Below are positions 39,185 through 55,452 of a DNA stretch of 64,000 bases, piece by piece. The notes below the pieces were generated by a model. The model saw only the letters and a list, made by a program, of their open reading frames with translations. It did no database searches and was not told the DNA's origin. The stretch's first letter is position 1; each line of letters starts with the position of its first letter. A program made the translations under genes and the position numbers. The DNA is from Prochlorococcus marinus subsp. marinus str. CCMP1375 (lineage in GTDB: Bacteria > Cyanobacteriota > Cyanobacteriia > PCC-6307 > Cyanobiaceae), in contig NC_005042.1 in NCBI RefSeq assembly GCF_000007925.1, forward strand, positions 1,116,001 through 1,180,000, written 5' to 3'.

Positions 39185-40550
39185 TAATCTTTTAAAAGCT
39201 CCTAACCAAAGTATTGAAGAAACTGGTTATGCCTGGTATGTAGGCAATGCTCGTTTAATTAATCTTTCTGGAAAACTACTTGGAGCCCACATTGCACATA
39301 CAGGACTAATGGTGTTCTGGGCTGGAGCAATGATGCTTTATGAAGTGAGTCATTTCACTTTTGATAAGCCAATGTGGGAGCAGGGCTTAATACTTCTTCC
39401 CCATGTAGCCATGTTTGGCTATGGCATAGGCCCAGGTGGAGAAGTTATTGACGTAATGCCATATTTTCAGGCTGGAGTTATTCACCTAATTGCTTCAGCA
39501 GTTCTTGGATTTGGAGGAATTTATCATTCTCTTGCAGGTCCAGAGAAATTAGAAGAAGAATTTCCTTTCTTCTCAACTGATTGGCGAGATAAGGACCAAA
39601 TGACAACCATCCTTGGTCGTCATTTATGTGTTCTTGGGCTAGGTGCAGTAGCTTTTGCTGTCAACTGGCAATTCCTTGGCGGTCTTTATGACACATGGGC
39701 TCCAGGCGGTGGTGAAGTTCGCTTGATTACACCAACTACAGATCCAGGAATTATTTTTGGATACCTTTTCCAAACCCCATGGGGTGGAGGAGGAAATATG
39801 GTAGGTGTTAACTCAGTTGAAGACATTGTAGGCGGGCACTATTACCTAGGAATTATTGAACTCATAGGTGGACATTTCCATATGCAAACCAAGCCATTTG
39901 GCTGGGCTCGCAGGGCTTTTATTTGGAATGGAGAAGCTTTGCTCTCTTATGCCCTTGGTGGTTTATGTGTAGCAAGCTTTTACGCCTCAGTATTCGTTTG
40001 GTTCAATAACACTGCTTACCCATCAGAGTTCTACGGACCAACTAATGCAGAAGCATCTCAGGCACAAAGTTTTACTTTCCTTGTAAGAGACCAAAGAATA
40101 GGTGCAAATGTCGGGACTACCATGGGACCAACTGGTTTAGGTAAATACCTAATGAGATCACCAACAGGAGAAATCATCTTTGGTGGTGAAACAATGCGTT
40201 TCTGGGACTTCCGTGGACCTTGGCTAGAACCTCTAAGAGGAGAGAATGGATTAAGTCTGGATAAAATCCAAAACGATATTCAGCCTTGGCAAGTTCGCCG
40301 CGCTGCTGAATATATGACTCATGCTCCAAATGCTTCTATCAACTCTGTTGGTGGAATCATTACTGAGCCTAATGCTGTCAATTTCGTTAACCTTCGTCAG
40401 TGGCTTGCATCAGCTCATTTCTTCTTAGGATGGTTTACATTTGTAGGTCATCTTTGGCATGCTGGTCGTGCTAGAGCTGCAGCCGGTGGTTTTGAGAAAG
40501 GAATTGATCGCAGAACTGAGCCTGCTCTTTCCATGTCTGATCTAGACTAA
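39168..40550 (+). CDS. psbC: photosystem II CP43 chlorophyll protein
   Basis: A 460-residue six-helix antenna protein. It begins [20 protein letters not shown] at a GTG codon. Characteristic parts include [60 protein letters not shown], the large lumenal loop with [20 protein letters not shown], and [20 protein letters not shown]. The GGEtMRFWD Arg is next to the Mn cluster in PSII. The gene overlaps psbD by 17 bases. Confidence 0.98.
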
Positions 40551-43506: not shown

Positions 43507-44925
43507 CTATTTATATAAATCCTGAATTTTCCCTCTTTTTAGTTTTAAAATATATATTAGGAACAAGGCATCTAAAAGCTCCCTCCATCTACTTATCATA
43601 ATCTTAAAATTCCTCAAACTTATTATCTTAGTTAGGGGCAAACAATCATTTTCATAGAAGTCAACTAAGTTAAGAAAAGTAGAAAAATTAGATTCTGCCT
43701 TCTGACTTATTGGAATTATTTCTAATAATTTTGATGCTGCAAATGTATTGTACATTTTTTTTGTATTACAATCATTAAAAACATATATAGGTAAGCAAAT
43801 TACAAATGCTAGATTATACTGATAAATTTCATCTTCACTTCCAATTTCCTTTATATAAGTAGAATTATTTCTAGGGTCGACTATGCAAAGCAACAGCTTC
43901 TCATCTAACTTCTGCTCAATAAGAAATGCAAACGTAAATTTAATTAGAAACGGTATAGTAATTGAATATAAAAACTTCTCAAAATAAGCATGAAAAGCCT
44001 TCCTATTAAGTCTCAATTTAGATTCTTTCGCATTCTGCTTAGTGAATTTATGCTGATGAATTTGCAAGTATTCAATTACGTGCTGATCAATTAATGAATA
44101 ATCATGTTTCACTATGTCAAAGCCTTTTGCATTCGACCATGTACTCCCAGAAGGCATTATTACGCAGGTTTGGGTTGATATTTTTTTTGAGTCGTAGACC
44201 TTCTTAACTAAATCAGGATTGCTATAAAATTGATTGAATTTCCTAGTCCTGCTATGCAGATGAAAATGTGAACTTGCAAAAGGTATCGCATACTTAGCCT
44301 TGCTTGATTTTGCAAAATAAGTGAACTCATTTGCATAATCAACTGGTGCTCGTGTACTTTTATCTGGATCAGATCCTCTCATACAATGAGGCAAAGGGCT
44401 TGCGGAAGAATGGCTTCTGAAAACAAAATCAAAGGATGGGTGATTAGATATTATTTGCTTAAGGCTAAGACCAAAAACTTTACTATCATTTGCATTTAGA
44501 AGCGAAGTATTATCTGCCTCGATGACCAAGGAAGAATCTATAAAGTATGGGTTAAATTGATAGCTAGCAATTCTAAAGTCCTTCCCTATTTCTATCTTCT
44601 TAGCATGATCTATTTCTAATATATCATCGAAGCTAAAGCTTCGTCTGCAATCATCCAACATTCGAGTATTAAAATGCCTAGGTAATAAGATTTTTGGCTT
44701 AAATTTTTGAAAACGTCTTAGGCTTGGTCCATGATAATGATCCCAATGTAAATGAGTAATGTATATATGAGTAGGTTCAATAGAGTCTATTAATTCCTGG
44801 CTCGGCTCTGGATAATTCCACCAACTTTTCCAATAGCAAGACCCTATTAGCCAAGGGTCTATTAAGAGTCTGGTATTTAAATACTCAACATACAAGCAGG
44901 CATGGCTAATTACTGTGAATTTCAC
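43507..44925 (-). CDS. CMAH-like metallo-beta-lactamase-fold protein
   Basis: A 472-residue protein. The N-terminal half is a metallo-hydrolase fold: ISHACLYVEYLNTRLLIDPW near 6-25, the metal motif THLHWDHYHG (H58, H60, D62, H63), and later histidines (PFASSHFHLHSRTRKF). The DPWLIGSCYWKSWW pattern resembles CMP-N-acetylneuraminate hydroxylase-like proteins, so a nucleotide-sugar or surface-glycan role is inferred, but no Rieske domain is seen. The C-terminal half is unfamiliar. It follows an O-acyltransferase on the same strand in a very AT-rich island. Confidence 0.7.
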   Translation of the reverse strand: MKFTVISHACLYVEYLNTRLLIDPWLIGSCYWKSWWNYPEPSQELIDSIEPTHIYITHLHWDHYHGPSLRRFQKFKPKILLPRHFNTRMLDDCRRSFSFDDILEIDHAKKIEIGKDFRIASYQFNPYFIDSSLVIEADNTSLLNANDSKVFGLSLKQIISNHPSFDFVFRSHSSASPLPHCMRGSDPDKSTRAPVDYANEFTYFAKSSKAKYAIPFASSHFHLHSRTRKFNQFYSNPDLVKKVYDSKKISTQTCVIMPSGSTWSNAKGFDIVKHDYSLIDQHVIEYLQIHQHKFTKQNAKESKLRLNRKAFHAYFEKFLYSITIPFLIKFTFAFLIEQKLDEKLLLCIVDPRNNSTYIKEIGSEDEIYQYNLAFVICLPIYVFNDCNTKKMYNTFAASKLLEIIPISQKAESNFSTFLNLVDFYENDCLPLTKIISLRNFKIMISRWRELLDALFLIYILKLKRGKIQDLYK

Positions 44926-44962
44926 AAATCAGAAGAGTGCAAGAGCATAATCATCTGAATAC

Positions 44963-47053
44963 CTAATTATTATCTTTTTTTATGATATCATTTCTTATTA
45001 AAAACTCAATAAAATGATCGTTTAAACCATATGCTACATCATGAGAGATGTGATTAGTATCTGTATAGATTAACTTATCACCGACTCTATTTACGCAATC
45101 TTCATTTGGACAAAGCTGATCAAATATATTGTAAATATGTAAATTTTTATGCTTATTAGATAATTTTTGAAGGTTTGTATCTATAGCATTTGTTCTACTC
45201 TTTAGAAACTTTTTATTCTCTTTATATACATTACACTTGTTATATTTAAATGGGCGATACCATTCCTTAACACATACAAAGTGGGGTGGGGCATTATCAA
45301 CCCCTGTAAATATTGGTATAGGTGCTAATACAATAAGATTTAATTTTAATTTCTCCAATCTAGTCGCTGTAGTAGATAGTTTTGCAGTCCATTCTTCTAA
45401 AGACTCTCCTACAGTAACAGGCATAAAGTCGTCTGAATAATGGTTGATTTTAGGTGATACCTTATCAAGTATTGGTTCTACAAAATGAAAATCTAGTCTT
45501 GATACAAGGAAAACTATATCATTCTTTTTAAGCAAATCCAACTGAGAGTTGAATTTTGAGTTTATGCCTTTGGTTAATTTGCTAGATACTTGTAATGTAT
45601 GGCCATACTCATGCGTTATATTTTTTGTCGGATAGATACCCGTTGCGGAAACATTAATACCAAAACCATAATCATTATGAATAGCTCCTAACAAAGGGAC
45701 CATATGACCAGCATGACTATCTCCAAATAATAAAATTGTTTGGAGATTCTTATTTTTTGCCGGAGTAGCGCAAGTGGATAAAAATTCTTGCTTAACACAT
45801 TCCATATAAGTAGCTTTAATAAATTCAGAACTAGGATTAAATCCTATAAAATCCATTTCATTACTACCTAAGTAAAAACGTTTATTTAAAGGCTCAATTT
45901 TATCTAGTACAGTTAAATGGGGAGACCGTATAAAGGCATAAGTTAAGCCAAATGAAGAACTTATAATAGTAGATATGCCTAAAAGAATATTTAGATGGCT
46001 TTTACCTAAAAGTTTTGAGAATCTAATTGGCTGTTCAATATATTTGTAGGAAAAATCTGCAAGTAAGTATATTAACAAGAGTTGTAGAGGTATTAGCCAT
46101 AGAGAATCCCCTAAAGTCCACCTGCTAATTACCAAAACGCCCCAGTGCCATAAATACAAAGAATATGAGATCAGACCTATATATAAGACTCTCTTATTTG
46201 TAAGAAAGTTAAATACTATATTATTTGACTTTAATGATATTATCAATCCAATAGTTAACAAGACTACTGAAATAGTTGAAATAACAATTAGGTTTTTTGG
46301 GATAAAAAATATAATTAATATAGGGATTAACAACCTAATAGGGTCTAGGTTATTTATCTTGCTATAAAGAGCCGAATATTTTACTTCAAGTATAAAAGCA
46401 AGACTTCCAGCTGCTAATTCCCAGAATCTAAATGGGCTTAAATAATAAGCGGCATTTTGATTAATGAAATTATAGTGAATAAATCCAAGCAGTGATATAG
46501 CAGAACAAAACGCTAGAAGTAAGAATAAGTTTCTAGGACCATTTTTTGACTTCTTAGCGAATCCAGTAAACCAAACAAGCAGAGGGAACAGAAGGTAAAA
46601 TTGTTCCTCGACGCCTAAAGACCATGTCTGAGCAAAAGGGTTAACCTGTGTTGCGCCAGAGAAATAGTTATTAGAAATAATAAATAGATAATTATTAGAC
46701 AATCCAAATAAGGATGATATTGCAGTCCTATAATGGATAGAGGGATCAGGATTAAATAATGATATTAGTAAAATAAATACCACTACATAAAAAATCAAAG
46801 GCGGGATTATTCGCTTAACACGTCTTTCGTAAAAGCCTAATATGTATTCCTTAAAGCCTTTATATTGTCTATTTGCTAAAGAAGAGGTGATTACATAGCC
46901 TGAGATTACAAAAAATATATCTACTCCCAAGAAGCCACTAGGAAGAAAGCGATCATTAAAATGATAAAGAATGACTGCTGCAACAGCAATTGCTCTTAAA
47001 CCATCAATTTCTGGTCTATAGCTTCCTTTATTACTTTTAATAGAACTGTTCAT
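44963..47053 (-). CDS. acyltransferase-3/SGNH surface O-acyltransferase
   Basis: A 696-residue OafA-like protein. The first 370 residues hold about ten membrane helices with the family signs YRPEIDGLRAIAVAAVILYH, GFLGVDIFFVISGYVI and SLGVEEQFYLLFPLL. The C-terminal SGNH domain has the nucleophile in LLFGDSHAGH near 444 and the catalytic Asp/His in TDTNHISHD near 674. These enzymes add acetyl groups to envelope glycans such as O-antigen or capsule. It sits upstream of the CMAH-like gene on the same strand. Confidence 0.9.
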   Translation of the reverse strand: MNSSIKSNKGSYRPEIDGLRAIAVAAVILYHFNDRFLPSGFLGVDIFFVISGYVITSSLANRQYKGFKEYILGFYERRVKRIIPPLIFYVVVFILLISLFNPDPSIHYRTAISSLFGLSNNYLFIISNNYFSGATQVNPFAQTWSLGVEEQFYLLFPLLVWFTGFAKKSKNGPRNLFLLLAFCSAISLLGFIHYNFINQNAAYYLSPFRFWELAAGSLAFILEVKYSALYSKINNLDPIRLLIPILIIFFIPKNLIVISTISVVLLTIGLIISLKSNNIVFNFLTNKRVLYIGLISYSLYLWHWGVLVISRWTLGDSLWLIPLQLLLIYLLADFSYKYIEQPIRFSKLLGKSHLNILLGISTIISSSFGLTYAFIRSPHLTVLDKIEPLNKRFYLGSNEMDFIGFNPSSEFIKATYMECVKQEFLSTCATPAKNKNLQTILLFGDSHAGHMVPLLGAIHNDYGFGINVSATGIYPTKNITHEYGHTLQVSSKLTKGINSKFNSQLDLLKKNDIVFLVSRLDFHFVEPILDKVSPKINHYSDDFMPVTVGESLEEWTAKLSTTATRLEKLKLNLIVLAPIPIFTGVDNAPPHFVCVKEWYRPFKYNKCNVYKENKKFLKSRTNAIDTNLQKLSNKHKNLHIYNIFDQLCPNEDCVNRVGDKLIYTDTNHISHDVAYGLNDHFIEFLIRNDIIKKDNN

Positions 47054-47871: not shown

Positions 47872-48573
47872 ATGCACCAATCACTTTTTAATCTTTTTGC
47901 CAACACTGTACCTAATATTTCATTTGAAAATAATATATCTGTTTTAGGCTTCATAACTAACTTAATAATTACTCTTACATTATCATTATTCTTATCTTAC
48001 ATATACACTAAATTCGGAAGAAGTCTATCAAATAGAAGAGAATTTTCATTAAACTTCTCTCCAATGAGCATGACTACCATGGTAATAATTACTATAGTAA
48101 AATCATCTCTTGCTTTGTCCTTAGGCCTTGTAGGAGCTCTCTCTATTGTTAGATTTAGAACAGCTATAAAGGAACCAGAAGAGTTAGTATACTTATTTTT
48201 GTCTATTGCGATAGGATTGGGGTTAGGTGCAAATCAAACTATAATAACAATTATAGGCTTCATTGTTATAGTCTCATACTTAATAGTTAGAAGTAGATAC
48301 ATGAAGAGATCAGAGGTTAGCTATATGAACTTAGTAATAACATATCCAGCCCCTAACCAGGAGGATTTCGAAAATATCATTGAAATTCTGTCAAGTTATT
48401 GTTCTAAACTTAATTTAAAACGTCTATCAGATAACACTGGCCAACTTGAGGCTCAATTAAGGTTAGAGGTAACTAATTTCAAAAGAATGATTGAAATTCG
48501 TAATAAATTAAATTCAAGATACCCTAATATAAACTTAAATTTTGTAGATACATCAGAAATTGCTACATACTAA
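47872..48573 (+). CDS. DUF4956 membrane protein
   Basis: A 233-residue protein with about four membrane helices in the first 145 residues. The DUF4956 signature is the block SLALSLGLVGALSIVRFRTA followed by IKEPEELVYLFLSIAIGLGL. The C-terminal 90 residues form a soluble alpha/beta tail. DUF4956 genes are recurrently found next to VTC polyphosphate polymerase and CotH genes in bacteria; the function is unproven and may be a membrane partner or channel. It is the first gene of the cassette and is preceded by an AGAGAAG ribosome site. Confidence 0.88.
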   Translation: MHQSLFNLFANTVPNISFENNISVLGFITNLIITLTLSLFLSYIYTKFGRSLSNRREFSLNFSPMSMTTMVIITIVKSSLALSLGLVGALSIVRFRTAIKEPEELVYLFLSIAIGLGLGANQTIITIIGFIVIVSYLIVRSRYMKRSEVSYMNLVITYPAPNQEDFENIIEILSSYCSKLNLKRLSDNTGQLEAQLRLEVTNFKRMIEIRNKLNSRYPNINLNFVDTSEIATY

Positions 48574-48585
48574 TTAAGTAAAACA

Positions 48586-51198
48586 ATGTTAATCAAAGCT
48601 AAAAAAAGAGTATTTTCTTCTAAGCAGAAAAATTTGGTTGGCTATTTACCTAAGTTAATAAAAAACTCATCACTATTAATTCTCTACACCGCTTTTGTTT
48701 CGATAATTTCATCTTCTTCTATAAGAAAAGGAATAAAAGAGATGATTCCATTAGGAGTTAAAAATGAACTTAGCCATCTGAGAATATTGAGCAATCCTTT
48801 TAGCTGGGTGAGAGGAAAGTTAACACCGACAGATCAGTTATTCCTAGATATAAACTTTAAGAACTACAAAAAGCTGGAACAAAAAAAAGATGAGGCTCTA
48901 AAAATAGGCGTTTTAATTGCAGAAGAAAGTGACTATGTAAAAGGCAACATTAGTAATAGGAAGAATTCAGTCGCAGGAAAAATTAGACTTAAAGGAGATC
49001 AAGTAGATCACTTTGGACAAAGAAAAAAATGGTCATTTCGAGTAAAGGTAAATGACGGAAAGACAATTAATGGTATGAACAAATTTTCTCTTCATACTCC
49101 ACAAACTCGAAATAATATTTGGGAATGGATTTATTTTGAATTTTTAAGGTATGAAGGTCTACCTAGCCTTAAATATTTTTTCGCTGATGTGACATTAAAT
49201 GGAAATTACCTTGGGCTTTATGCAATAGAAGAGCATTTCGATAAAATTCTTCTAGAATCTAATAAATTTAAAGAAGGTCCGATAATCAGTCTAACTGAAG
49301 ATTCTTATTGGTACTACATTGCCCAGGCTAATAAGAGTAAAACTAGACCTTTAAATACAGGTAATGATAGTTTCTATAACACGGAACCTAAAGTCTTTAA
49401 AGAAGCAAAAACTCTCGCTAGTCCTATTCTGAAGAATCAATTTCAAAAAGCATCGCAACTTTTAGAAGGATTCTATACAGGTAAATTAACAACGTCAGAA
49501 GTCTTTCCTCTAGAAACATTAGCTAAATACTACGTTATAACTGATTTAAGTAACAGTTACCATGCTACAAGATGGCATAATCAAAGATTCTACTATGAAC
49601 CAACATCATCATTACTTATACCATTAGGATTTGATGGTATGGGGGGTCCAGGCAATGCTTTTCATTTCCATGATTTAAGTATCGACAGGCACATAAATGG
49701 TGTAAATAAGGAACTAAGTTACTTTGATGATCCTAATTTCGTAAAGTTATACATAGAAAACCTTGAGAGAGTATCTAAACCTGAATACTTGGACAAATTC
49801 TTTCTAAAGATTAATAAAGAATTAAATTACAATGTCAATGTCCTAAGAAGAGACAACCCTAGGATCTCAAAAAATGATATTAAAGAAAAGTTATATAAAA
49901 ATCAATTATTAATAAAATCATACCTAACTCCACCACCAAATAGTCTGAACATATACCTGCAAGAAATAGATGATAAGTCAATAAAATTATCAATAGGAAA
50001 TAAACAAGTTATGCCGATTAAATTGCTAGGTATATATTACAAGAATAATTTAATATCAAATTTAGAGGACCAAGAATACATAAAATCAAAACATAAGGAT
50101 AATTTTATTAACTATAATGAGTATAAAAGTAAGCTTAATTATCCAATAGAAGATATAAATAATCTATCAATAGCATACAGCATATTAGGTTCTTCGAAAA
50201 TTAAGCAGCAAAACATTCGTCCTTATTCTAGACTTAATTCTATTGATGCTAAAAAGGACCTAATTCGCAGTAATTCTAATTTAGATAAGTTTCCTTTTAT
50301 AATTCATAATGAAGTCGATAAAATATTAACATTTAAATCTGGCAATTGGGTACTGAGGAAACCATTAATCATTCCAAAGCTCTATAAGGTTAAAAATGAA
50401 TTAGGCTTTAACATTACTATGAAAGATGATGGACTTATTTACTCAAAGAGTTCAGTAAACTTAATAGGTTCAACTTATAATCCAGTTAAAATAAATGGAG
50501 AGGGCTCTACAAATGGTCTAGTAGTTATAAATGCAAATGATAAATCCATTCTAAATAATGTTGAATTCAATGGTCTTTCTACACCAAGCAAAGGCTTATG
50601 GAGTGTTCCTGGATCAGTGACATTCTACCAATCTCCTGTAGAAATCCTTAATTGTTATTTTAATTCTAATAATTCTGAAGATTCACTTAATATAGTGAGA
50701 TCCGATTTTAAGTTAATTGACAGTAAATTTAATTTGACCAGATCTGATGCTATTGATATAGATTTTTCTGATGGACATATTAATAATATACAAATAACTA
50801 ACGCTGGGAATGATGGGCTGGATGTATCAGGTAGTAATATAAAAGTTAATAATATAAAAGTTAATTATGCTGCTGATAAAGCTATAAGTGTAGGAGAGGC
50901 CTCAAATATTGTAGCGAAAGATATAATGATAACTAATTCTGGGATTGCAATAGCTAGCAAGGATGGTTCTTTAATGAAAGCAAGCAATGTCGTACTAAAT
51001 TCATCAAAAATTGGCTTCGCTGCTTTTCAAAAAAAAGCTGAGTACTCTCCAGCTAGCATAAAATTAAAAAATACTAGTTATAATGGTATTGACAATTTAT
51101 TTCTATTATCTGAGGGCTCAAAGCTAATTCTCAATGGTACAAGTTATAACCCAAATTCAACTAACGAGGTAATAAATAGAATGGTATACAAAAAATAA
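48586..51198 (+). CDS. CotH-family kinase-like protein fused to a beta-helix domain
   Basis: An 870-residue envelope protein. A membrane anchor lies near 27-46. The CotH domain spans about 85-440: GKIRLKGDQVDHFGQRKKWS, KWSFRVKVNDGKTINGMNKF, FADVTLNGNYLGLYAIEEHF, and LIPLGFDGMGG where the catalytic Asp of CotH is expected. CotH proteins are atypical kinases that phosphorylate proteins or cell-surface molecules. Residues about 620-860 show short repeats (SDAIDIDFSDGHI, NDGLDVSGSNIKV, DKAISVGEASNI, IAIASKDGS) typical of a right-handed parallel beta-helix. It begins 12 bases after DUF4956 and abuts the VTC gene. Confidence 0.85.
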   Translation: MLIKAKKRVFSSKQKNLVGYLPKLIKNSSLLILYTAFVSIISSSSIRKGIKEMIPLGVKNELSHLRILSNPFSWVRGKLTPTDQLFLDINFKNYKKLEQKKDEALKIGVLIAEESDYVKGNISNRKNSVAGKIRLKGDQVDHFGQRKKWSFRVKVNDGKTINGMNKFSLHTPQTRNNIWEWIYFEFLRYEGLPSLKYFFADVTLNGNYLGLYAIEEHFDKILLESNKFKEGPIISLTEDSYWYYIAQANKSKTRPLNTGNDSFYNTEPKVFKEAKTLASPILKNQFQKASQLLEGFYTGKLTTSEVFPLETLAKYYVITDLSNSYHATRWHNQRFYYEPTSSLLIPLGFDGMGGPGNAFHFHDLSIDRHINGVNKELSYFDDPNFVKLYIENLERVSKPEYLDKFFLKINKELNYNVNVLRRDNPRISKNDIKEKLYKNQLLIKSYLTPPPNSLNIYLQEIDDKSIKLSIGNKQVMPIKLLGIYYKNNLISNLEDQEYIKSKHKDNFINYNEYKSKLNYPIEDINNLSIAYSILGSSKIKQQNIRPYSRLNSIDAKKDLIRSNSNLDKFPFIIHNEVDKILTFKSGNWVLRKPLIIPKLYKVKNELGFNITMKDDGLIYSKSSVNLIGSTYNPVKINGEGSTNGLVVINANDKSILNNVEFNGLSTPSKGLWSVPGSVTFYQSPVEILNCYFNSNNSEDSLNIVRSDFKLIDSKFNLTRSDAIDIDFSDGHINNIQITNAGNDGLDVSGSNIKVNNIKVNYAADKAISVGEASNIVAKDIMITNSGIAIASKDGSLMKASNVVLNSSKIGFAAFQKKAEYSPASIKLKNTSYNGIDNLFLLSEGSKLILNGTSYNPNSTNEVINRMVYKK

Positions 51199-51885
51199 AT
51201 GGCAAATTCCTATACTAAAAAGTTTAGATATGAAAGAAAGCTAATAGTACCTTCAAGCTTAGATTATTACCTGGATTTCTTGATTAAAAGTCATCCTGCA
51301 AGGTTTAAGCAGTCCTACAAAGATAGATCTATTAACAATGTTTATTTTGATACTCTTAATTACGAATATTATAATCAAAATATAAGTGGCCTTCCTAAAA
51401 GAGATAAATTTCGAGTTAGGTGGTACGGTGAATTGTATGGACTTATCAGTCCAATAGTTGAAATAAAAAGCAAACGAGGCTCAGTTGGAACAAAATCCTT
51501 ATACAAAGTAGATAAGTTTAGCTTTATAAAATCTACTTCTGCATATTCATTTAGGAACCAACTCTTAAATGCAGTTAGTTTAAATGAGATTAAACTTGAG
51601 ATAATGAACTGCTATCCAACATTGCTAAATACATATAAGAGAAAGTATTTTGAGTCATATGATGGTAAGTTTAGAATTACAATCGATACAGATATTAAGA
51701 GTCATAATATAAGACTCAATACTCCTTTCCATAGTTTCTTCAATGTCGTAAATTCTTATAATATACTTGAGCTTAAATATGATAAAGAAGATGAAAGTAT
51801 GGCGAATTTAATCTCTTCTAACTTGCCATTTAGATTAACTAAATACTCTAAATATGTTAATGGAATGCAAAGTGTTGTCCTATAG
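51199..51885 (+). CDS. VTC-domain polyphosphate polymerase
   Basis: A 228-residue protein made of one VTC (CYTH-like tunnel) domain. Visible active-site blocks are KKFRYERKLIVP, INNVYFDTLNYEYYN, KRDKFRVRWYG, PIVEIKSKRGSVGTKSL, YKRKYFES, FRITIDTDI and ILELKYDK, supplying the basic and acidic tunnel residues of eukaryotic Vtc4. The family makes polyphosphate from ATP. The ATG follows the CotH stop codon directly with no gap. It has no membrane segment, so it should act in the cytosol, perhaps at the membrane with DUF4956. Confidence 0.9.
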   Translation: MANSYTKKFRYERKLIVPSSLDYYLDFLIKSHPARFKQSYKDRSINNVYFDTLNYEYYNQNISGLPKRDKFRVRWYGELYGLISPIVEIKSKRGSVGTKSLYKVDKFSFIKSTSAYSFRNQLLNAVSLNEIKLEIMNCYPTLLNTYKRKYFESYDGKFRITIDTDIKSHNIRLNTPFHSFFNVVNSYNILELKYDKEDESMANLISSNLPFRLTKYSKYVNGMQSVVL

Positions 51886-51974
51886 ATTAAAATGACTCTA
51901 CAATCAAAGATTATTTCATATTAAAATTATATCTAAATTAATTTTTCTTAAATCAATGTTAATCATTAATTAAA

Positions 51975-52856
51975 ATGTTTTATTCACATCTTAAAAGAAA
52001 GATAATATACTTGCTTCTTTTTTTTATATCCATCTCTCTAATTAACAAATATAGCAACTTTAAGTTCAAAGCATTACTAATTTCAAAATACACACAAATA
52101 AAGCCTTATATTGTTACATATAAAATGCAATCATGTAATATAAAAAAGACAACGAGAGTTCCAAAAGGTTCAACAGTTGTAATCGGTCATGCTTATGGCA
52201 ATCAATCTTCAAGCAATCATTATATAAGCAAGAAGCTAGAATCATTCCTAGATAAGAATATTGATAATATAAATCAAATAATCCTAACTGGAGATGTATT
52301 TTCTATCCCCACTAAAAGAAAATGGGCAAAGCTTTATCAAAATTATAATATTAAGGCAGATTTAATTATTTCTCCAGGCAATCATGATGTTGGTTTTAAC
52401 AATAAATATCTCAGAGATATTTTCTATAATGCAAGCATACTAAATAGAAAAATACCTTATAGAATTAATTCTTCAGGGTTCGATTTAATCGTTGAAGATA
52501 GTACAATCAGCAATTGGATTATTAATAAAAGCACCATAGATTTAATTAATAGCAGTTCGAAAAATAATTCGACTATATTATTAAGACACCATATACCTAT
52601 ACAGGAACTTGTTATACTTGCAAATAGTATGGAAGGATATAAAGGCGACCTGCCTACAGCAACTCAACTATCTAAATCTATAAAAGTACCAATTACTATA
52701 ATATCTGGAGATGGCGGTGCCTTTTTCAATCAACCACGTCTTATGTGTAAGAAATATAATAATATAACTTTTATTGTTAATGGAATTGGCAATTTCGATA
52801 ATGATAAGATAATTATACTTTATAAAAATAGAATATATAAGTATAATCTTAAGTAA
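51975..52856 (+). CDS. membrane-anchored divergent metallophosphoesterase
   Basis: A 293-residue protein with an N-terminal anchor (about 8-25) and a calcineurin-like domain outside. Motifs seen are VVIGHAYGN (where D-x-H is usual), [27 protein letters not shown] and ISGDGGAFF (where G-H-x-H is usual). The central GD and GNHD blocks are intact but the first Asp and the last His pair are altered, so it is either a divergent phosphoesterase or a pseudo-enzyme. It lies 89 bases after the VTC gene on the same strand and is equally AT-rich. Confidence 0.72.
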
Positions 52857-52896: not shown

Positions 52897-53787
52897 TTGA
52901 ACTTTCAGGACATAATCTCTAGCCTTAATAGTTTCTGGAGCAATCAAGGTTGTGTTTTACTGCAACCATATGACACTGAAAAGGGCGCAGGGACTATGAG
53001 TCCTCATACGATTCTGAGGGCGATTGGACCTGAGCCTTGGTCGGTTGCATATGTGGAACCATGTCGAAGACCAACAGATGGTAGGTATGGTGAGAATCCA
53101 AATCGAGCTCAACATTATTATCAGTACCAAGTAATTATTAAGCCTTCGCCTGACGAAATTCAAGAGAAATACCTTTCTTCGCTAGAGGCTTTAGGAATTA
53201 AACAAGAACAACATGATATACGTTTTGTAGAAGATAATTGGGAATCGCCAACTCTTGGCGCATGGGGTGTTGGATGGGAAGTTTGGCTAGATGGAATGGA
53301 GGTCACTCAGTTTACTTATTTTCAACAATGTGGGGGATTAGATTGTCGTCCAGTCTCCATAGAAATTACTTATGGATTAGAAAGAATAGCTATGTATCTT
53401 CAAGATGTAAAAAGCATTTGGGATTTAAGATGGAATGATTCATATAGCTATGGTGATATTTGGCTTCCCTATGAGAAATCAAATTGCAAGTTTAATTTTG
53501 AAGGTTCAAATCCAGAACGATTATTTAAACTTTTTGATTTGTATGAAGAAGAAGCTAAATCCTTATTAAATAAAAGATTGTCTTCACCCGCTTTAGATTT
53601 TGTATTGAAATGTAGCCATACTTTTAACCTACTAGAAGCTCGAGGAGTTATATCGGTAACTGAAAGAACAGCGACAATTGCTCGTATCCGTAATTTGGCA
53701 AGAAAAGTTGCAGAGCTATGGCTTGAAGAAAGAAAGAATATAGGTTTTCCTCTTCTTAAAAACTCACAAACGAGCAAAAACTCTTAG
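52897..53787 (+). CDS. glyQ: glycyl-tRNA synthetase alpha subunit
   Basis: A 296-residue catalytic alpha subunit of the heterotetrameric class II synthetase. It has [80 protein letters not shown] and the class II arginine region [13 protein letters not shown]. The start is TTG at 52897; there is no ATG before the conserved N-terminus. The beta subunit is not adjacent, as is common in cyanobacteria. Confidence 0.96.
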
Positions 53788-53825
53788 AAAGTTGTATAAA
53801 TAGACACTTGGAGTTGTGTCTTTGG

Positions 53826-53857
53826 TTGCAATGACTGCTTATCTACATATATAGAAT
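53826..53857 (+). promoter_or_regulatory. candidate sigma-70 promoter of the porin gene
   Basis: TTGCAA at 53826-53831 is followed after 18 bases by TATAGA at 53850-53855, some 44 bases before the ATG. This fits a housekeeping promoter for an abundant outer-membrane protein. No transcription data support it. Confidence 0.4.
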
Positions 53858-53898
53858 AGGCTTACCCAATTAATGGGTATTTTGTGAGGAATCCTAAA

Positions 53899-55452
53899 AT
53901 GAAGCTTTTCCAGCAATTGCTGCTGGCTCCAGCTGCATTAGGTCTGTTAGCACCTCTAGCTGCAAATGCAGCTGAGATCAACATCAAAGATGTTGCAGAG
54001 TATGCCAACAGCCCTAAGCAAGCTCAAGCCATTAAAACGACTCAATTCTCCGATGTTGTTCCAGGAGATTGGGCTTATACAGCTCTACAAAACTTAAGTG
54101 AGAGCTATGGCTGTGTAGACAATGCCTACACTCAAAACCTTAAAAGTGGTCAGGCTCTAACTCGTTATGAGGCTGCTGCACTTGTTAATGCTTGCCTAGA
54201 TGGCGGCATTGCTTCTGCAGAAGTAACTCCTGATGCTGCTCGTCTTGCTAATGAGTTTGGCACTGAAATGGCCATTCTTAAAGGACGTGTTGATGGACTT
54301 GAGTACAAAGTTAAAGAACTTAGTGCTGGTCAATTCTCAACAAGCACAAAGCTTAACGGTAAGGTTGTTTTCGCAACAGGTTACGTAAAGCCTGAGAAAG
54401 GATCTGCTGCTGCTTATAGCGATAAGTTAACCAGTACTTATGTAGCTCAATACAACCTAAATACCAGTTTCACTGGTAATGACAGACTATATACTCGCAT
54501 CAAGGCGGGTAACATGGACAGCACTCCATGGGAAAACACCACATACGGCACACATTTAGCTGCTGCACATAAAGGCGGAAGCGCTCTTTCTGTTGACAAG
54601 CTTTGGTACGAATTCCCAGTTCTGGATGAATTCAAGGTTTGGTTTGGTCCAAAGATTGAGAACTACTACATGTTGGCAAGTTCTCCATCTATCTATAAGC
54701 CAGTTACCAAGCAGTTTGCACTAGGTGGTAATGCTGCAACTTACGGTTCAAGTACCGATGGTGGTTTTGGTGTTGCTTGGACACAATCTGTGGATGACAG
54801 ATCAGAGCCTAGATTCGCAGTTTCAACAAACTACGTATCTAAAGGAGCTTCTAAATCCACTGAAGGTCTTCTTACAGATGGCGCTGACTCCAAATGGTTA
54901 TCCAAGGTTGAGTATGGCTCACCTAAGTGGCAAGTTTCTATGGCTATGGCCAAGAACGAATGTTCAGGATCTTGCAAAAACTGGCAGGAGTACTACACAA
55001 CATCCTCTGGTTCTACCCACACTGGCGATTCAACAGCTTATGCTCTAAGAGGCTACTGGAGACCTGATACTGACAGTGCTATCGTGCCTGACTTACAAGT
55101 TGGATACGACTGGGTAAATGTTGATGATGATGGTGCTACTGGCTCTGTAGAAAAAGCTAGTTCATGGATGGTCGGCATGATGTGGGCAGATGCCTTTATC
55201 GATGGCAACCGTTTAGGAGCTGCCTTTGGTCAACCTCAAAAAGCTACCGAAATAGTTGGTGGCGGTGATGCTGACGGAACTGAAGATGGTGCTTTTGCCT
55301 GGGAACTTTATTATGACTATAAAGTTACCGATGGAATCACAATTACCCCATCGATCTTTGGTTCTACCGATCGTTATAAAGGACATCAAAACATGGGCCT
55401 AACTCGTGACGATCAATTTGGTGGTCTAGTTCAGACAACCTTTAAGTTCTAA
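53899..55452 (+). CDS. som: Som-type outer membrane porin (SLH domain + OprB barrel)
   Basis: A 517-residue precursor. A signal peptide (MKLFQQLLLAPAALGLL onward) is cleaved after about residue 24. An S-layer-homology domain follows, FSDVVPGDWAYTALQNLSES to NACLDGG, which binds the peptidoglycan-linked polymer, then a short coiled coil (ILKGRVDGLEYKVKELS) and an OprB-like beta-barrel ending GGLVQTTFKF with a terminal Phe. It is the main porin type of marine picocyanobacteria. The ATG at 53899 is preferred over a GTG five codons upstream. Confidence 0.93.
   Translation: MKLFQQLLLAPAALGLLAPLAANAAEINIKDVAEYANSPKQAQAIKTTQFSDVVPGDWAYTALQNLSESYGCVDNAYTQNLKSGQALTRYEAAALVNACLDGGIASAEVTPDAARLANEFGTEMAILKGRVDGLEYKVKELSAGQFSTSTKLNGKVVFATGYVKPEKGSAAAYSDKLTSTYVAQYNLNTSFTGNDRLYTRIKAGNMDSTPWENTTYGTHLAAAHKGGSALSVDKLWYEFPVLDEFKVWFGPKIENYYMLASSPSIYKPVTKQFALGGNAATYGSSTDGGFGVAWTQSVDDRSEPRFAVSTNYVSKGASKSTEGLLTDGADSKWLSKVEYGSPKWQVSMAMAKNECSGSCKNWQEYYTTSSGSTHTGDSTAYALRGYWRPDTDSAIVPDLQVGYDWVNVDDDGATGSVEKASSWMVGMMWADAFIDGNRLGAAFGQPQKATEIVGGGDADGTEDGAFAWELYYDYKVTDGITITPSIFGSTDRYKGHQNMGLTRDDQFGGLVQTTFKF

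Follow-up and report, generated by a model that had tools for sequence, protein, structure and literature searches.

A conserved DUF4956, CotH-like/beta-helix and VTC gene module with a recurrent phosphoesterase in Prochlorococcus marinus and many other phyla

A 64,000-nucleotide stretch of the Prochlorococcus marinus subsp. marinus str. CCMP1375 genome (NC_005042.1, positions 1,116,001 to 1,180,000; hereafter the window) carries a cassette of four open reading frames (ORFs), all on the forward strand and separated by gaps of 12, 0 and 89 bases, exactly as placed by a sequence-only reading of the same DNA. The first (47872..48573) encodes a DUF4956 membrane protein of 233 residues (Pfam PF16316, E 2.5e-16) and the second (48586..51198) a CotH-like/beta-helix fusion protein of 870 residues with one N-terminal membrane anchor (PF08757, E 4e-7). 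These are followed by a VTC polyphosphate polymerase of 228 residues without a transmembrane segment (51199..51885; PF09359, E 4.7e-42) and by a membrane-anchored calcineurin-like phosphoesterase of 293 residues, in which motifs I and V are altered (51975..52856; PF00149, Metallophos, E 1.5e-4). In the predicted topology the VTC protein is cytosolic and the DUF4956 protein lies in the membrane, with the CotH-like/beta-helix protein and the phosphoesterase outside. The first three genes form a triad which is a conserved module of many phyla and no novelty of Prochlorococcus, and the cassette is probably one functional module with a surface polysaccharide as the likely target.

The VTC protein scores 144.6 bits in Pfam against a curated cut-off of 23, and its profile matches the Vtc4 structure 3g3q (E 7.3e-11). 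Alignment to Vtc4 places the tunnel residues R72, R74, K90, K99, R148, R159, E191 and K218 at 51412..51852 (+), with a further one, K14, upstream of this interval. The tunnel on which the sequence-only proposal of a polymerase depended is therefore present, with all tested residues, among them the counterparts of the Vtc4 metal Glu and catalytic Lys, conserved at 98-100% in 74 sequences, equivalence being judged by alignment. The protein consists of the VTC domain alone, the SPX and DUF202 membrane domains not having been found in it, and by hydropathy a membrane segment is absent from 72 of the 74 VTC proteins. Tunnel enzymes are known to have a common fold and differing chemistry, and in Vtc4p, where Lys458 is the catalytic residue, the product path has four basic residues where hydrolytic tunnel enzymes have an acidic patch (PMC4641920). 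At these positions the cassette protein has the basic R10 and K193 and the acidic E12, the fourth being unplaced in the alignment. E12 is 100% conserved and resembles an acidic-patch residue of the hydrolytic enzymes, which would suit a triphosphate tunnel enzyme of hydrolytic or other function (a tripolyphosphatase, for example) with no polymerase activity. This alternative appears improbable, given that R10 and K193 are basic where, by motif, hydrolytic relatives have an acidic-patch Glu, that the catalytic Lys of Vtc4 is retained, and that Pfam places the protein in PF09359 and not in CYTH. The predicted role of the VTC protein, judging from its residues, is probably the synthesis of polyphosphate from ATP in the cytosol.

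The DUF4956 protein has been modelled with AlphaFold2 (mean predicted local distance difference test, pLDDT, 87.7) as four transmembrane helices and a cytosolic ferredoxin-like (ACT-type) C-terminal domain, the latter matching ACT and PII-like folds in a fold search of the PDB. An invariant segment, ALSLGLVGALSIVRFRTAIKEPEEL (48112..48186, +), stands out by conservation, and R94 and R96 of an RxR motif are 100% conserved in 68 sequences; the segment is a candidate polyanion-contacting site. The layout of transmembrane helices and ACT domain is similar to that of MgtC-like membrane proteins, to which a weak match has been detected (PF02308, E 0.027, below the cut-off).

In the CotH-like/beta-helix protein, hydropathy indicates an N-terminal membrane anchor at residues 28-46 (48667..48723, +), preceded by a Lys/Arg-rich N-terminus, and a hydrophobic segment occurs within the first 70 residues in 83 of 91 relatives; the protein beyond the anchor is predicted to be extracytoplasmic. 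A CotH-like kinase-fold domain covers approximately residues 113-440 (48922..49905, +; profile match to 5jd9, E 3.9e-16; Foldseek matches to 5jd9/5jda, E 1e-11). The Bacillus spore-coat kinase CotH (5jd9/5jda) shares this fold over about 330 residues, together with the conserved Asn and probably the Asp of the active-site region, and CotH has been described as conserving the equivalents of PKA D166, N171 and D184 (PMC12189002). The cassette protein differs from it in being membrane-anchored and fused to a beta-helix, and in having His326 (49561..49563, +) at the position of the catalytic Asp, the equivalent of PKA D166. The equivalences rest on that review and on our alignments. The His occurs in 82 of 96 relatives (about 85%); the catalytic Asp is present in an FN3-type CotH located beside VTC. 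N332 and D350 are mostly kept among the 96 relatives. D350, present in 87, is a candidate for the second active-site Asp (the PKA D184 equivalent), although its alignment could be with either Asp of WDxD. Because His326 replaces the catalytic Asp, the protein is classed here as CotH-like only and kinase activity may not be assumed.

A right-handed beta-helix at approximately residues 572-842 (50299..51111, +) is confirmed in the predicted AlphaFold2 model (pLDDT 90.4), and its Foldseek matches are to the folds of glycan-acting enzymes (GH87, AlgG, GH28 and PL3). It resembles GH87, GH28 and AlgG in fold and in the acidic residues conserved on successive turns, and is unlike them in having its own set of invariant motifs, with no catalytic match established. 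The most conserved, gap-free block of the alignment lies here (residues 690-822; 50653..51051, +), with the motifs ED..N..S, SDAIDxDFS, GNDxIDxSG, DKxxSxGE, KDxS and KK. Conservation is higher in the beta-helix than in the kinase-like domain, and the 18 positions that are invariant in 85 sequences comprise 17 in the beta-helix and one, G137, in the kinase-like part. The atypical kinase that the sequence-only reading took as given is accordingly put in doubt. An alternative is that the CotH-like domain has lost its kinase function and that the beta-helix binds glycans or acts on them as a hydrolase, lyase or epimerase, with polyphosphate from VTC and DUF4956 either deposited on the exported glycan or ion-paired with it. 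The His found across phyla, the distribution of the invariant residues and the GH87, AlgG and GH28 matches all favour this alternative, which we nonetheless consider unlikely: the kinase-like domain is kept in full-length relatives, with H142, S150, E180, E216 and E224 conserved at 95% or more, and N332 and D350 mostly remain.

The conserved beta-helix block was used as query in a wide scan of 84,980 species, the full alignment of the CotH-like/beta-helix protein being too diverse for this purpose, and at least 518 relatives were detected. The best 80 of these loci cover about 18 phyla, as assigned by record titles; many are metagenome-assembled genomes (MAGs), in which binning may err. They include Cyanobacteriota, Bacteroidota, Pseudomonadota (Pelagibacter among them), Myxococcota, Planctomycetota, Omnitrophota, Nitrospinota, Acidobacteria, Spirochaetes, Chloroflexota, several phyla of the candidate phyla radiation (CPR) and one woesearchaeote, so that the setting in an ocean cyanobacterium, once thought to be new, is one of many. 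Among 37 loci from organisms other than Prochlorococcus, each with at least 3 kb flanking the CotH/beta-helix gene on both sides, VTC and DUF4956 genes both lie within 3 kb of it in 26. Some loci depart from the usual plan. Three from Bacteroidota (L107, L108 and L077) have tandem CotH/beta-helix genes with no VTC detected nearby; in an acidobacterial MAG (L111, 5028-7549) the CotH-like domain and the beta-helix fall on two overlapping ORFs, either a natural split or a frameshift; and a Kordiimonadaceae MAG (L049, 3525-14389) has two or three cassette copies side by side in opposite orientation. No matches were obtained when the same genome collection was scanned with a single VTC protein, when plasmids were scanned with the beta-helix block, or when phage genomes were scanned with the CotH/beta-helix protein, nor did the DUF4956, VTC and phosphoesterase proteins of the cassette match PHROG. 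With the plasmid, phage and PHROG scans empty, a phage or plasmid origin of the cassette is unsupported.

The phosphoesterase scores 22.7 bits in Pfam against a cut-off of 21.5, and most of its relatives also match. It keeps the GD (D107), GNHD (135-138) and HH (H205-H206) motifs, which are largely kept across the subfamily; in nearly all members motif I reads GHxY instead of DxH, and motif V GDxG, GNxG or similar instead of GHxH. With these two motifs altered, its activity is putative and uncertain. A hydrophobic segment is N-terminal in 15 of 17 of these proteins and C-terminal in six. Clustering of the neighbours in the best 80 of the at least 518 loci showed this subfamily to be the commonest extra neighbour, present at 14 loci, three of them in Prochlorococcus. 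Its position varies: between the CotH/beta-helix and VTC genes in one deltaproteobacterium and two CPR bacteria, directly after VTC in a spirochaete, and just upstream of DUF4956 in Prochlorococcus MIT 9107. Members of this subfamily occur alongside the triad in Deltaproteobacteria, Bacteroidota, Omnitrophota, Spirochaetes, CPR bacteria and Pelagibacter, and the phosphoesterase is therefore not the new addition it had been thought to be. Given its recurrence at triad loci and the shared motifs, it is a genuine, optional and recurrent fourth part of the cassette.

The distribution among picocyanobacteria was surveyed in 392 Cyanobiaceae genomes. VTC genes are present in 19 (about 5%), nearly all with the full triad, DUF4956 in 20, CotH by Pfam in 14, every one of which also has VTC, and the cassette-type phosphoesterase in six, five of them with VTC. 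Of the two genomes with DUF4956 but no VTC, one (G257) is cut by a contig end, as are the remaining phosphoesterase genome (G264) and a cassette in G212. Co-occurrence with VTC gave Fisher p values of 7e-28 for DUF4956, 6e-22 for CotH and 9e-7 for the phosphoesterase; because the genomes share kinship these values are too small, and the direction is clear. On this co-occurrence, the clustering of the genes is more than chance, and together with the adjacency in distant phyla it upholds the proposal that the four form one module. Profile searches and neighbourhood comparison across cyanobacteria likewise bore out the expectation that the neighbours co-occur in relatives: the triad is kept together at nearly all Cyanobiaceae loci, usually in the order DUF4956, CotH/beta-helix, VTC. 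It is a rare accessory in this family. One genome (G001) has two cassettes, and another (G221) a solitary, shortened VTC of 175 residues without partners (L039, 4705-5232), which is probably a cassette remnant. Elsewhere in the cyanobacterial phylum, a divergent version of the beta-helix type occurs in two genomes, and in one the triad contains FN3-type CotH genes. G439, a further genome from this phylum, has a VTC-domain gene that follows one resembling an exopolyphosphatase (Ppx/GppA; L177, 2729-5177), an independent tie of bacterial VTC to polyphosphate. In a tree of 96 CotH/beta-helix proteins, built by a quick method and with long branches, the picocyanobacterial members fall in several separate groups, and the cassette was therefore probably gained more than once by picocyanobacteria.

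These data also bear on the link to phosphorus limitation drawn in the sequence-only reading. The VTC polymerase signature and the adjoining phosphoesterase gene could be taken to indicate a polyphosphate storage or phosphorus-scavenging system for phosphorus-poor ocean water. We regard this as very improbable in view of the scarcity of VTC in the family, the ppk already present in the same genome, the relatives whose record titles name groundwater, sediment and other sources (among the best 80 of the at least 518) and a CotH/beta-helix protein without evident storage role. The flanks of the cassette, which vary by strain, point elsewhere as well, often containing surface-polysaccharide genes; on visual inspection of the sequences, those in Cyanobiaceae include glycosyltransferase and sugar epimerase genes and one that is MBOAT-like.

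In the window, the next gene, glyQ, lies 40 bases past the phosphoesterase ORF. The G+C content of the cassette genes is 27-30%, against 35% for the window and 38% for glyQ, a low value as in a genomic island, and no promoter or terminator signals above chance were found in the cassette region. Unlike cassette versions adjoin the same glyQ-porin pair in three genomes of different genera (window 52897-55452; L032, 307-3017; L036, 10999-13804), which suggests that this pair is a common insertion hotspot for cassettes. Upstream lie genes for a metallo-beta-lactamase-fold protein and an acyltransferase-SGNH protein (window 43507-47053, -), and the latter has a close relative (E 6e-127) next to the cassette in L029 (2531-4573). 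Further away, an Rfam match to IsrR, the antisense RNA of isiA (118.7 bits; window 39582-39765, -), is antisense to a gene that resembles psbC (CP43) by sequence. As psbC is a relative of isiA, the match probably arises via this kinship; the alternative is a genuine antisense RNA.

The same three families have been reported as contiguous accessory genes of Gram-positive Pel loci, where cotH, a polyphosphate polymerase and DUF4956 (with DUF4832) are tied to a surface polysaccharide (PMC7112168). The Pel CotH has an FN3 domain in place of the beta-helix, and the phosphoesterase is undescribed for these loci; no pel genes (pelDEADAFG) were found by Pfam among the neighbours in the window, the genome at large not having been searched for them. 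In S. intermedius, loss of SIR_1594 (CotH) or SIR_1592 (DUF4956-like) alters Pel and lowers aggregation by more than half in one medium, with Pel raised on deletion of the DUF4956 member and lowered on deletion of the CotH member (PMC12345266). These opposite effects, the weak MgtC match and the small ligands that ACT-type domains usually sense would fit a signalling system, in which a machine for polysaccharide synthesis or export is controlled by a membrane sensor of the MgtC-like/ACT type together with a local pool of polyphosphate and a secreted pair of protein kinase and phosphatase. Such a system is rather unlikely, as no fixed polysaccharide operon or other conserved partner accompanies the cassette at the loci examined and the beta-helix suggests that the substrate is a glycan.

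A second parallel is offered by the yeast VTC complex, which likewise combines a cytosolic tunnel polymerase (Vtc4) and a membrane partner, and by Ppn1, the vacuolar polyphosphatase of yeast, a calcineurin-type phosphoesterase anchored in the membrane at its far side. Unlike the cassette, the yeast complex has SPX and DUF202-type membrane domains; no relation in sequence between DUF4956 and the yeast Vtc1 channel is recognised, and the CotH/beta-helix protein is an addition of the cassette.

The reading we tentatively prefer, while giving it somewhat less than an even chance, is that the cassette is a membrane-spanning module which modifies a surface glycan with phosphate. Cytosolic VTC would make polyphosphate from ATP, and the DUF4956 protein, with its four helices, ACT-type domain and invariant RxR, would dock VTC and pass or present the polymer at the membrane, doing what the membrane component does in the eukaryotic VTC complex. 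On the outside, the beta-helix would grip the surface polysaccharide and phosphoryl groups would be transferred by the CotH-like/beta-helix protein in the direction of the glycan. ATP is present inside the cell only, and since it would be unavailable beyond the membrane, the donor would be polyphosphate. Where present, the phosphoesterase would trim polyphosphate or strip phosphate marks. The genetic coupling of the parts and the conserved VTC residues are firmly established and the folds and topology are predictions, while polyphosphate as donor, glycan as acceptor, the direction of transfer and the part played by the phosphoesterase are inferred. This reading builds on the linkage, near-obligate co-occurrence and adjacency of the genes in distant phyla, the conserved VTC residues, the predicted topology and beta-helix fold, the glycosyltransferase and epimerase flanks, and the analogy to the Pel triad. 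Several points weigh against it. The PDB search gave no full-length structural relative of DUF4956, leaving a conduit of this kind without structural precedent; the kinase activity of the CotH-like domain may be lost or changed; and the invariant E12 recalls hydrolytic enzymes. The remaining loci of the 37 (about 30%), mostly from Bacteroidota, have CotH/beta-helix without a nearby VTC. Deletion of the S. intermedius polymerase SIR_1593 gave no clear reported phenotype (PMC12345266), and no reported activity was found for any bacterial member. The fullest version of the proposal, in which cytosolic polyphosphate carried by DUF4956 is the donor for an ATP-independent, CotH-derived transferase acting on surface glycans held by the beta-helix, with the phosphoesterase as eraser, in many phyla, is a possibility we put forward as somewhat unlikely.

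The interest of the cassette lies elsewhere than in Prochlorococcus or phosphorus limitation. In a 2025 report no triad was found beyond Pel loci (PMC12345266), a negative that does not hold given the widespread loci described here. The triad is thus not confined to Pel loci, and the DUF4956 and bacterial VTC proteins gain a common context. What is new in this barely known group is the beta-helix CotH-like protein and the dedicated phosphoesterase, for neither of which a describing paper was found in the literature searched, though other work may exist; the latter adds a subfamily without description in the literature found. The phosphate donor of extracytoplasmic bacterial kinase-like proteins has been unclear, ATP staying inside the cell, and the combination of a polyphosphate polymerase, a membrane protein and an extracytoplasmic CotH-like protein in one module, recurring in about 18 phyla, makes this question directly testable.

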